A stretch of 45,712 nt of DNA from Bacteroidales bacterium (GTDB lineage Bacteria > Bacteroidota > Bacteroidia > Bacteroidales > VadinHA17), in NCBI GenBank assembly GCA_003141715.1, contig PLNF01000086.1:28755-74466 (forward strand). The letters are read 5' to 3'. The notes beneath the pieces were generated by a model. It was not told the DNA's origin and searched no databases. It worked only from the letters and a program-made list of their open reading frames with translations. The position numbers and the translations under genes are program-made. Shown here in pieces: positions 7,186-21,513 of this stretch; the first letter of the stretch is position 1; each line of letters opens with the position of its first letter.

Positions 7186-7242
7186 ATGTACTACAAATCA
7201 ACATCACATCATCATTTTTTTCTTTGCTTTCAGGCGAGGTGA
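7186..7242 (+). CDS. Histidine operon leader peptide
   Basis: An 18-codon frame, MYYKSTSHHHFFLCFQAR then TGA, between leuB and hisG. Three consecutive CAT codons (7207-7215) form a histidine sensor. The frame starts 19 nt after a -7 box and ends 31 nt before an intrinsic terminator. Its last codons carry TCAGGCGAGG, which can pair with the terminator's 5' arm. The expected job is ribosome-mediated attenuation: stalling at His codons lets the antiterminator form, and a ribosome at the stop codon masks it. The peptide itself needs no function. Confidence 0.85.
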   Translation: MYYKSTSHHHFFLCFQAR

Positions 7243-7284
7243 TATTGATATGTGTGTAAATTAAAATATCATAAACCCGTCTGA
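7230..7284 (+). promoter_or_regulatory. Candidate antiterminator of the his attenuator
   Basis: TCAGGCGAGG (7230-7239) can pair with CCCGTCTGA (7276-7284), the 5' arm of the terminator, in nine pairs with one bulged A and one G-U. The upstream strand is nearly a copy of the terminator's own 3' arm (TCAGGCGGG), as expected for mutually exclusive folds. TGATATT and AATATCA in between could zip up the loop. Confidence 0.7.
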
Positions 7285-7305
7285 GTAGATCAGGCGGGTT
7301 TTTTT
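7273..7305 (+). terminator. Intrinsic terminator of the his attenuator
   Basis: Stem AAACCCGTCTGA / TCAGGCGGGTTT (12 pairs, one G-U), loop GTAGA, then seven T residues. It lies 17 nt before the hisG start, where a constitutive terminator would silence the operon, so it must be conditional. Confidence 0.9.
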
Positions 7306-14454: not shown

Positions 14455-14520
14455 ATGAATATTGTATACAAATATTTTATCTCCTTTTTTTACTTCTATT
14501 TTTATTTTAGAAACAGATAA
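14455..14520 (+). CDS. Phe/Tyr leader peptide
   Basis: A 21-codon frame with five Tyr and six Phe codons; its core reads YKYFISFFYFYFYF, followed by RNR and TAA. It sits between a consensus promoter and an intrinsic terminator ahead of pheA. The composition marks it as a sensor for charged tRNA-Phe and tRNA-Tyr. Its start region (14463-14472) can pair with 14528-14537, just after the stop codon. The next segment AGGGATTT (14521-14528) can pair into the terminator. This is the expected layout for ribosome-mediated attenuation. Confidence 0.85.
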   Translation: MNIVYKYFISFFYFYFYFRNR

Positions 14521-14537
14521 AGGGATTTTTGTATACA
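14463..14537 (+). promoter_or_regulatory. Candidate 1:2 stem of the Phe/Tyr attenuator
   Basis: TGTATACAAA (14463-14472) and TTTGTATACA (14528-14537) are perfect 10-base complements flanking the Phe/Tyr codons. A ribosome stalled early would break this pair and free AGGGATTT (14521-14528) to pair with GGGTCCCT (14563-14570) of the terminator's 5' arm (five Watson-Crick and three G-U pairs). Confidence 0.55.
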
Positions 14538-14557
14538 GATAATTTAAATTATATGAA

Positions 14558-14590
14558 AGCAAGGGTCCCTCGGAGGGGCCCTTGCTCTTT
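14558..14590 (+). terminator. Intrinsic terminator of the Phe/Tyr attenuator
   Basis: Stem AGCAAGGGTCCC(T) / (A)GGGGCCCTTGCT of 12-13 pairs around a tiny CGG loop, then TCTTTT. It is 18 nt upstream of the pheA ATG and 37 nt after the leader stop codon, so readthrough must be regulated. Confidence 0.88.
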
Positions 14591-14607
14591 TAATACTTTT
14601 TGAGAAA

Positions 14608-19951: not shown

Positions 19952-19980
19952 TTGATATTTTAAATTTATTATTATTTTTG
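19952..19980 (+). promoter_or_regulatory. Promoter of the trpB transcript
   Basis: TTG (19952-19954), an 18-nt spacer, then TATTTTTG (19973-19980): an exact match to the Bacteroidota promoter pattern. Confidence 0.78.
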
Positions 19981-19997
19981 TCGTCATGAAAGCACAA

Positions 19998-20060
19998 ATG
20001 TTTTATATATGGTCGTGGCGCAGCTTAACTGATTCAGCTGTGAAACAAGCCATTATATAA
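19998..20060 (+). CDS. Tryptophan leader peptide
   Basis: A 20-codon frame starting MFYIWSWRSL, with two Trp codons (20010-20012 and 20016-20018), ending at TAA. An in-frame ATG at 19986 would add MKAQ, but it falls about where transcription should start. The ATG at 19998 keeps the 18-nt spacing from the -7 box seen in the other leaders. The Trp codons directly precede the 5' strand of a 1:2 hairpin, and an antiterminator and terminator follow. This is the classical trp-leader arrangement, here ahead of a solitary trpB. Confidence 0.82.
   Translation: MFYIWSWRSLTDSAVKQAII
20019..20042 (+). promoter_or_regulatory. 1:2 hairpin of the trp attenuator
   Basis: CGCAGCT (20019-20025) pairs with AGCTGTG (20036-20042) across a 10-nt loop. 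A ribosome stalled on the Trp codons ending at 20018 would cover the 5' strand and release the 3' strand. Confidence 0.65.
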
Positions 20061-20102
20061 CACTAACAAGATATTTATTTATAGAGGCACGCTGTTCACA
20101 GC
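20037..20102 (+). promoter_or_regulatory. Antiterminator pairing of the trp attenuator
   Basis: GCTGTGAA (20037-20044) is the exact complement of TTCACAGC (20095-20102). The latter forms the loop and first four bases of the terminator's 3' arm, so the two structures exclude each other. Confidence 0.72.
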
Positions 20103-20113
20103 ATGCCTTTTTT
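20085..20113 (+). terminator. Intrinsic terminator of the trp attenuator
   Basis: Stem AGGCA-C-GCTG / CAGC-A-TGCCT (nine pairs, one C-A mismatch), loop TTCA, then six T residues. It ends 38 nt before the trpB ATG. Confidence 0.85.
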
Positions 20114-20151
20114 GTTATAAAATTTTTAACCATCACTAATATTTAACAACT

Positions 20152-21513
20152 ATGGAAAAGATCAGAAAAATAATCTTAAGCGAAAGCGAAATGCCGAGGC
20201 AATGGTATAATATCGTGGCAGATATGCCTAACAAACCAATGCCGCCGTTGCATCCGGTTACAAAACAACCGGTCGGTCCGGAGGACCTTGCCGCTGTTTT
20301 TCCCATGGAGCTTATAAAACAGGAGGTATCAGCCGAGAGGTATATTGATATACCGGATGAAGTACTTGATCTCTATACTGCCTTTCGTCCCTCACCTCTC
20401 TTCAGGGCATTTAGCCTTGAAAAAGCCCTGGGTACAAAAAGCAAAATCTACTACAAGTATGAAGGCGGCAATTATTCCGGCTCTCATAAAGCCAACACTG
20501 CAATTGCGCAGGCATATTATAACAAAATGGAAGGAATAAAAAGAATTACCACTGAGACCGGAGCCGGACAGTGGGGAAGTGCCATGGCTTTCGCCTGCCA
20601 CCATTTCGGACTTGAACTTCTGGTCTTTATGGTAAAGGTCAGCTATGACCAGAAACCAGGCCGCAAGCTTTTGATGAACACTTATAATGCCAAGGTAGTC
20701 GCTTCACCAAGCACTATGACGGTGGCCGGAAGGAGAGTTCTTGAACTGGACCCCGATTCCCCGGGAAGTCTGGGTATAGCAATTTCCGAAGCTATGGAGG
20801 TGGCGGTACAGGATCCGTATACCAAATACTCACTCGGCAGCGTCCTTAACCATGTTATTCTTCACCAGACCATCATAGGACAGGAAGCACTTCTTCAAAT
20901 GGGAAAAACAGGTGATTACCCTGATGTTGTGATCGGCTGTTTTGGAGGAGGTTCGAATTTCTCAGGAATTGCATTTCCGTTCCTGCGCGAAAAGTTGCTT
21001 AACGGAAAAAATATAAGGCTTGTGGCCGTTGAGCCTGCCTCGTGTCCAAAACTTACGAAAGGAAAATTCATGTACGACTTCGGCGATTCGGCAGGGATGA
21101 CTCCTCTCCTTCCCATGTACACTCTGGGACATAATTTTATGCCTGAGAAGATTCATGCAGGTGGTTTACGCTACCACGGTGCAGGAGTTCTTGTAAGCCA
21201 GCTCCTCAAAGATGGATTTGTTGAGGCAAAGGCAAAGATGCAGAGGGAATGTTTTGAAGCAGGCGTGCTTTTCGCAAGGACAGAAGGTATTCTTCCTGCT
21301 CCCGAATCGACTTATGCTATTGCCGGTGCTCTTGATGAGGCAAGAAAGGCCGATCTGGAAGGGATCTCAAGGACGATACTCTTTAACCTGAGTGGCCATG
21401 GCCATTTCGACATTTCTGCTTATGAGAAGTATTTCGAAAATAATCTTCCTGACCATGAACTGACAAGCCTGGAGGTTGACGAAGCGATAGCTAAAATTAA
21501 TATCCCCGTGTGA
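20152..21513 (+). CDS. trpB: Tryptophan synthase beta chain, TrpB2 type
   Basis: PLP enzyme (453 residues) that joins indole and serine. The length and sequence (RPSPLFRAFSLEKALG, YKYEGGNYSGSHKANTA with the PLP lysine, TTETGAGQWGSA, the phosphate-binding CFGGGSNFSG, HAGGLRYHGAG) identify the TrpB2 class rather than the about 400-residue TrpB1 that pairs with TrpA. No trpA or other trp gene is adjacent. The tryptophan-type attenuator upstream argues that it really serves tryptophan supply, perhaps salvaging indole. It ends facing the NIPSNAP gene. Confidence 0.92.
   Translation: MEKIRKIILSESEMPRQWYNIVADMPNKPMPPLHPVTKQPVGPEDLAAVFPMELIKQEVSAERYIDIPDEVLDLYTAFRPSPLFRAFSLEKALGTKSKIYYKYEGGNYSGSHKANTAIAQAYYNKMEGIKRITTETGAGQWGSAMAFACHHFGLELLVFMVKVSYDQKPGRKLLMNTYNAKVVASPSTMTVAGRRVLELDPDSPGSLGIAISEAMEVAVQDPYTKYSLGSVLNHVILHQTIIGQEALLQMGKTGDYPDVVIGCFGGGSNFSGIAFPFLREKLLNGKNIRLVAVEPASCPKLTKGKFMYDFGDSAGMTPLLPMYTLGHNFMPEKIHAGGLRYHGAGVLVSQLLKDGFVEAKAKMQRECFEAGVLFARTEGILPAPESTYAIAGALDEARKADLEGISRTILFNLSGHGHFDISAYEKYFENNLPDHELTSLEVDEAIAKINIPV

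Follow-up and report, generated by a model that had tools for sequence, protein, structure and literature searches.

A predicted tryptophan attenuator upstream of a stand-alone trpB2 gene in Bacteroidales

A stand-alone trpB2 gene in a Bacteroidales genome is very probably controlled by a ribosome-mediated attenuator that senses charged tRNA-Trp and governs the making of tryptophan from indole. The gene lies in a 45,712-nucleotide stretch (GenBank assembly GCA_003141715.1; contig PLNF01000086.1, positions 28,755 to 74,466, forward strand), referred to here as the window. Read from the sequence, the region 5′ of trpB2 contains a Bacteroidota promoter, a leader open reading frame (ORF) that includes two Trp codons, and three helices that exclude one another and show both conservation and covariation. 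That this leader is an attenuator seems, from these features, almost certain.

The window carries a series of amino acid biosynthesis genes: ilvC, leuACD, a cimA-like gene, leuB, and a his operon, followed by pheA, an aminotransferase gene, tyrA, aroGH, aroA, and then trpB2; all names except trpB2 are our own reading of the translations. The end of aroA and the start of trpB2 are separated by 281 nt, and the promoter, leader ORF, and terminator all lie inside this gap. The trpB2 product exceeded the cutoffs of both NF009057 (703.6 bits; cutoff, 366) and TIGR01415 (619.2 bits; cutoff, 518.85). The ORFs flanking trpB2 do not include trpA, and the genome's only full-strength match to TrpA lies next to trpB1 on contig C23. 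An earlier note on this DNA had described a solitary TrpB2 with no trpA neighbor, a description that the flanking ORFs and profile scores bear out.

Two other leaders were observed in the window: 5′ of hisG (positions 7186 to 7301), a His leader (MYYKSTSHHHFFLCFQAR) with a strong terminator behind it (−19.1 kcal/mol), and a Phe/Tyr-rich leader (MNIVYKYFISFFYFYFYFRNR) with a terminator 5′ of pheA (14455 to 14592). With the trp leader, they make three attenuators in a row within one supercluster. A simple scan from position 1 of contig C74 to the end of the window found only these three.

The features of the trpB2 locus, all on the forward strand, are as follows.

19952 to 19954, forward: −33 element TTG of a Bacteroidota-type promoter, 18 nt from the −7 box (consensus from PMC7366714)
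19973 to 19980, forward: −7 element TATTTTTG (consensus, TAnnTTTG), a motif enriched among adjacent leaders
19983 to 19984, forward: predicted transcription start, 2 to 3 nt 5′ of the leader ATG, placed by the spacing of the −7 box
19986 to 20060, forward: leader peptide ORF MKAQMFYIWSWRSLTDSAVKQAII of 24 codons, from its translation and the Trp-rich leaders of relatives
20010 to 20018, forward: regulatory codons Trp-Ser-Trp (TGG TCG TGG), from the alignment
20019 to 20025, forward: segment 1, which pairs with segment 2 (20036 to 20042), from folding and alignment pairing
20036 to 20044, forward: segment 2, the 3′ arm of the 1:2 hairpin and 5′ arm of the antiterminator (20037 to 20044), from sequence, duplex test, and alignment
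20095 to 20102, forward: segment 3, the antiterminator partner TTCACAGC, located in the loop and on the inner 3′ arm of the terminator, from a shuffled-duplex test and the alignment
20085 to 20113, forward: intrinsic terminator hairpin and U-run (segments 3:4), from folding and alignment pairing
20152 to 21513, forward: trpB2, a stand-alone TrpB-like tryptophan synthase gene, from profile scores (closest solved chains, 6hul_B, 4qys_B, and 6hte_B)

Direct reading of the sequence placed every element where the earlier note had put it. The promoter stands as claimed (TTG, 18 nt, and TATTTTTG), as do the two Trp codons of the Trp-Ser-Trp leader (20010 to 20012 and 20016 to 20018), the 7-bp 1:2 hairpin (CGCAGCT at 20019 to 20025 with AGCTGTG at 20036 to 20042), the exact 8-bp antiterminator (GCTGTGAA at 20037 to 20044 with TTCACAGC), and the terminator (hairpin, 20085 to 20108) with its six T residues (20108 to 20113). 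The antiterminator is extended by GCC (20049 to 20051) pairing with GGC (20086 to 20088). The first base of segment 1 directly follows the second Trp codon, the antiterminator portion of segment 2 begins 18 nt past this codon, and the leader stop codon (20058 to 20060) lies beyond segment 2. As to the proposed likeness to the 1:2/2:3/3:4 logic of Escherichia coli, the three helices are indeed present, and the point to be refined is the partner of the antiterminator: the antiterminator of E. coli trpL pairs with the 5′ arm of the terminator, whereas that of the window reaches beyond this arm to the terminator loop and the inner 3′ arm.

The terminator folded at −12.4 kcal/mol (z, −3.55), a value equaled by none of 200 shuffled sequences, and the whole leader had a z of −3.03 (2 of 200 shuffles equal). 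The terminator contains a C.A mismatch (20090/20103), the window leader being the sole one of 72 aligned leaders unpaired there. The 1:2 hairpin was weak when folded alone (−7.2 kcal/mol; z, −1.74; 12 of 200 shuffles equal), and the support for it therefore comes from comparison with relatives.

For this comparison, TrpB2 was found in 98 of the 117 genomes of the window's family. We read 98 loci, 97 of which had enough upstream sequence; one locus (L035), with only 63 nt upstream, was excluded from the leader counts, as was one genome (G110) whose TrpB2 runs into a contig end, and relatives L106 to L150, which overlap loci already counted, were counted once. A Trp-rich leader was present in 91 of the 97 readable loci, adjacent to trpB2 in 87 and farther upstream in 4; this count was made partly by eye, and a strict automatic detector (a Trp-rich ORF plus a terminator) passed 86 of the 97 upstream regions versus 1 of 485 shuffled sequences. 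Leader and trpB2 stay paired behind differing upstream genes (aroA, aroGH, pheA, or hisIE). No leader was found in the other six loci (L011, L014, L017, L050, L054, and L100). Of these, the first three have trpB2 close behind aroA, and in L050 and L054 it lies behind aroGH. Leader loss showed no significant link with trp genes (Fisher P = 0.50, calculated when ten loci were scored as leaderless). The upstream region of L011 (genome G069) retains an apparent decayed terminator, and the leader model described below matches L014 (G059) in its 3′ part only (positions 67 to 109).

In the four loci with a distant leader (L097, L099, L101, and L104; genera g2, g7, and g4), the Trp leader and terminator are followed by a second small ORF, which lies between the attenuator and trpB2. 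Its common pattern is seen in WLKRIIFLWCR, HWWGRVIFRWR, and KWWRYINFRWGR, and by eye the peptide also occurs in L100. No terminator was found after this second ORF in the four loci.

We then examined covariation in two alignments, one of 72 leaders and the other of 9 distant leaders, which together represent 81 distinct loci of the 83 (out of 98) used in the antiterminator tests. Both TGG codons were invariant in 72/72 aligned leaders, which had been preselected as Trp-rich. The terminator was paired in 98.3% of cells, with two-sided changes in 30 cells versus 4.6 in shuffles. The corresponding values were 86.8% and 35 cells (versus 15.8) for the antiterminator and 85.3% and 13 cells (versus 5.8) for the 1:2 hairpin; these shuffle controls leave relatedness in, and the structures were derived from the same sequences. 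Most of the antiterminator changes (22 of 35) were A-U to U-A at one column pair (37-90), and pairs 27-99, 28-98, and 37-90 were unpaired in 19, 44, and 17 of the 72 leaders, respectively. Counted by pair, two-sided changes occurred at 5, 5, and 4 pairs of the terminator, antiterminator, and 1:2 hairpin (equaled in 36, 27, and 96 of 500 shuffles). The numbers of further pair types (11, 15, and 12) were near those of the shuffles (162, 189, and 54 of 500 as high). Sliding the partner by 1 to 3 columns lowered pairing to 14 to 59% across the three helices. All three stems thus covary, the 1:2 stem least.

The nine distant leaders, aligned separately, have a longer antiterminator with 93.7% of cells paired and a single two-sided change (C-G in seven leaders and A-U in two close relatives). 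For 73 of the 83 loci, no more than 5 of 100 shuffles equaled the best antiterminator duplex. When antiterminators and terminators were swapped between genera, duplexes averaged −17.0 kcal/mol versus −19.6 kcal/mol for a leader's own pair; own pairs in the distant genera reached −23.9 kcal/mol versus −15.4 kcal/mol with near hairpins, and the advantage of own over swapped pairs almost vanished in genera g10 and g12. The leader thus combines a tandem-Trp ORF, a U-run terminator, an exclusive antiterminator, and a 1:2 hairpin at the Trp codons, as a trpL-type attenuator does.

One feature absent from the earlier note concerns the start of the leader. According to the available part of PMC7366714, the Bacteroidota promoter consensus is TTTG/TAnnTTTG, the −7 element of Bacteroides thetaiotaomicron is centered at −7, and most 5′ untranslated regions in that species are 23 nt long, with about 3.7% under 10 nt. 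Of the 87 adjacent leaders, 74 have TAnnTTTG at 20 to 85 nt 5′ of their last Trp codon, versus 7% of mononucleotide shuffles. The leader start codon lay exactly 5 nt past the box in 69 of the 77 trpB2 loci with a box. Another 13 loci lack TAnnTTTG, including every member of the distant set, and the 5-nt spacing is documented only outside that set. Among 29 trpE leaders examined in the family, the distance from box to start was 18 to 21 nt in 22 of the 23 that have a box. Given the 5-nt spacing and the centering of the element at −7, the trpB2 leader ORF should have only 2 to 3 nt of mRNA in front of it, and a near-leaderless mRNA is the likely prediction for the window.

A covariance model built from the 72 leaders, which match it by construction, was used to follow the leader further. 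At an E value of 0.01, it matched 90 of the 117 family genomes. All 80 family matches below 1e-9 adjoin trpB2 (two beside truncated or divergent copies), and weaker matches were located 5′ of trpE in five genomes (G022, G055, G012, G053, and G044). Two other weak matches were seen in the family (G031:C58 and G030:C152). In one of the trpE upstream regions (L222, G022), two tandem Trp-rich leaders, each with a terminator-like hairpin, were visible by eye.

Across the order, the model matched 18 of 344 sampled Bacteroidales genomes, two of which belong to the window's family. The 18 nonfamily loci precede a solitary trpB2 (7), trpE (7), trpB1-trpE (3), or a cysK-like gene (1). This search is not a measure of frequency, with 7 trpB2 leaders found and TrpB2 present in 122 of the 344 genomes. 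The detector passed 20 of 58 trpB2 upstream regions from other families versus 1 of 1,160 shuffles, and 38 of the 58 failed. These 58 come from 118 nonfamily TrpB2 genomes; 49 were picked to represent one family each and 9 were additional, and two loci were discarded, L292 for being too short and L298 for covering the wrong stretch. In a loose look at L151 to L185 minus the family members, only L161, L164, and L167 combined a Trp-rich ORF and a strong terminator. The locus with the cysK-like gene (L234, G244) has, at about 595 to 737 on the reverse complement, a leader rich in Cys (CCWCC codons) that, together with a terminator, precedes the cysK-like gene and, by our own reading, a cysE-like acetyltransferase gene, with trpB2 farther on; this leader is a candidate cysteine attenuator.

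The proposed mechanism is as follows. When charged tRNA-Trp is scarce, the ribosome would stall at TGG-TCG-TGG and mask segment 1; because segment 1 abuts the Trp codons and segment 2 lies 18 nt on, a stalled ribosome would cover the former and free the latter. Segment 2 would then pair with 20095 to 20102, the terminator would be blocked, and trpB2 would be transcribed. With ample tryptophan, the ribosome would run on, segment 2 would be masked or held in the 1:2 hairpin, the terminator would form, and transcription would stop about 40 nt 5′ of trpB2. Read-through transcripts from the upstream aro genes would meet the same terminator. TrpB2 itself would make tryptophan by condensing free indole with a serine donor.

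The gene complement of the family bears on this role. In the window's genome, contig C23 carries trpE, -G, -D, -C, -F, -B, and -A (trpA is truncated where the contig ends), and these genes have their own Trp leader (MKAIYTYWRWWLTKFHFLT) and a terminator-like hairpin 5′ of trpE. This answers the question raised by the earlier note of whether a canonical operon with its own leader exists, and TrpB2 would act here beside that operon. Trp-rich leader ORFs were present in 29 of the 30 trpE loci fetched from the family. Among the 117 family genomes, TrpA was detected in 49 (E value, 1e-10), TrpB1 in 48 (1e-60), TrpC in 47 (1e-20), and TrpE in 50 (1e-60). Of the 98 genomes with TrpB2, 35 have all of TrpA, TrpB1, and TrpC, 6 have some, and 57 have none. 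Three of the latter carry trpE (G032, G061, and G087), and their removal leaves 54 of the 117 genomes in which TrpB2 was found while TrpA, TrpB1, TrpC, and TrpE were not, as judged in draft genomes at fixed E values by a search restricted to these genes. Twenty-six of these 54 are among the 65 good genomes (≥90% complete and ≤5% contaminated). In many relatives, then, TrpB2 would act as the sole tryptophan synthase subunit found. The association between TrpB2 and missing trp genes was not significant (Fisher P = 0.13 for all 117 genomes, 0.16 for the 65 good ones, and 1.0 for the 42 best), and two genomes scored as TrpB2 free actually hold a truncated or divergent TrpB2. The argument thus rests on the existence of such genomes. 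The leader is kept in 52 of the 53 readable loci of the 54, and a Trp switch retained on TrpB2 where the other synthase genes were not found is hard to explain unless tryptophan is made from free indole.

The likely indole source would be the cell's own tryptophanase or neighboring cells. The window's genome has a tryptophanase (TnaA) gene (G000:C82, L216:1079 to 2455; NF053783, 824.3 bits; cutoff, 750), which is a possible internal source. Tryptophanase-family proteins occur in 94 of the 117 family genomes, although none of these reaches the cutoff of the model used for this count, which also scores relatives; two were typed, and one was a divergent second kind. In 11 of the 54 genomes with TrpB2 but without the searched trp genes, no tryptophanase-family protein was found (for two of the 11, as judged by their absence from the matches), and indole would there have to come from outside. 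The B. thetaiotaomicron TrpB2 (BT_RS23500) gave a growth benefit to an E. coli trpA mutant beside wild-type cells, an effect credited by its authors to indole secretion (available part of PMC11535334). The 54 genomes and this report support the suggestion of the earlier note that TrpB2 serves tryptophan supply, perhaps by indole salvage. We regard indole salvage as the probable main role of the window's TrpB2.

TrpB-type enzymes are catalytically broad. The attenuator might accordingly be real while TrpB2 serves mainly another reaction (e.g., serine removal or the making of another beta-substituted amino acid), with tryptophan starvation as a proxy. The 35 TrpB2 genomes that also have TrpA, TrpB1, and TrpC would fit such a role as well. 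We consider it improbable: Trp-specific leader codons recur across many genera, the trpE operon leaders of the family bear the same Trp signal, and the Bacteroides homolog supports the E. coli trpA mutant through indole cross-feeding (PMC11535334, in the part available).

The ribosome might also be stalled by the nascent peptide rather than by a shortage of charged tRNA-Trp. TnaC is an example of such arrest. WSWRSS and its variants around the Trp codons are conserved within the genus, and some relatives have the second small, W-containing ORF 5′ of trpB2 described above. However, between genera the residues other than Trp vary (YWWWWR, WRWWWQ, and NWWWQ), while the Trp codons and helices stay, and segment 1 falls on the codons of the conserved RSS. 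We therefore rejected this explanation, which we rate as very unlikely.

Given the position of the element between aroA and trpB2, the hairpin could simply terminate the aro cluster (it would stop aroA read-through in any case), followed by a constitutive trpB2 promoter, with the Trp-rich ORF arising by chance. The promoter and leader, however, sit upstream of the hairpin and not downstream of it, the Trp codons are invariant in the aligned leaders, the antiterminator covaries, and the unit of leader and trpB2 also occurs behind hisIE, pheA, or aroGH, with 1 of 485 shuffles passing the detector. On these grounds, we rejected a plain interoperon terminator with a chance ORF as barely credible. 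A T-box or riboswitch was rejected as well, since the window has no Rfam match at the gathering score.

Charged tRNA-Trp attenuation thus remains our reading, and several known systems resemble it. Trp leaders are already known in Bacteroidetes, namely the Bacteroid-trp RNA (Rfam RF01692) of Weinberg et al. 2010 (PMC2864571, as far as available), and the trpB2-linked branch is not captured by that model. The best RF01692 match in the window does fall on the trpB2 leader and spans the full model (1 to 131), but it scores 23 bits against a gathering cutoff of 49 (E value, 1.9, which by itself is chance level). None of 20 other trpB2 loci passed the cutoff. One relative (L084) reached 39.6 bits. 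Of 18 trp operon loci, 2 passed (L233 and L237, whose leaders were found with the TrpB2 leader model) and 16 failed. RF01692 leaders control the trp operon, whereas the window leader would control a solitary trpB2.

The E. coli trpL leader (RF00513) shares the tandem Trp codons, the 1:2, 2:3, and 3:4 helices, and the U-run. The window leader differs from it, besides the antiterminator partner, in its Bacteroidota promoter, predicted near-leaderless start, and control of one gene instead of the trp operon. RF00513 had no match in the window or genome at its cutoff of 41 bits. When 10 TrpB2 loci were searched at a low threshold, its matches coincided with the leader in five, L080 (35.3 bits), L084, L098, L022, and L034, these being among 31 listed matches that were mostly to unrelated families. 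Lopatovskaya and others reportedly published an attenuator survey in 2010 that may include Bacteroidetes.

Corynebacterium diphtheriae has a candidate Trp attenuator before a trpB2A operon, which opens with a second trpB copy (available part of PMC1262725); there trpA follows trpB, whereas the TIGR01415-type TrpB2 of the window stands alone. The TrpB2-type enzymes of B. thetaiotaomicron and Thermococcus kodakarensis (Hiyama 2014, as cited in PMC11085991) turn indole into tryptophan in indole salvage, and the available parts of these accounts (PMC11535334 and PMC11085991) describe no Trp-responsive leader. We found no published Trp attenuator before a stand-alone trpB2 in the open-license PMC literature. 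The trpB2 leaders add to the Bacteroidete Trp leaders a branch missed by the Rfam model.

The role of TrpB2 has been held to be unclear. The Trp switch is kept with trpB2 in many families, including in genomes where TrpA, TrpB1, TrpC, and TrpE were not found, and this conserved switch provides independent genetic evidence that the cellular product is tryptophan. There is perhaps an even chance that a leader-controlled indole salvage module (a Trp attenuator with a near-leaderless mRNA of its own, linked to stand-alone TrpB2) replaces the tryptophan pathway in many Bacteroidales, which would then be indole dependent, using their own or their neighbors' tryptophanase, and not truly auxotrophic for tryptophan. 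Indole exchange between community members would thereby become predictable from sequence and testable.
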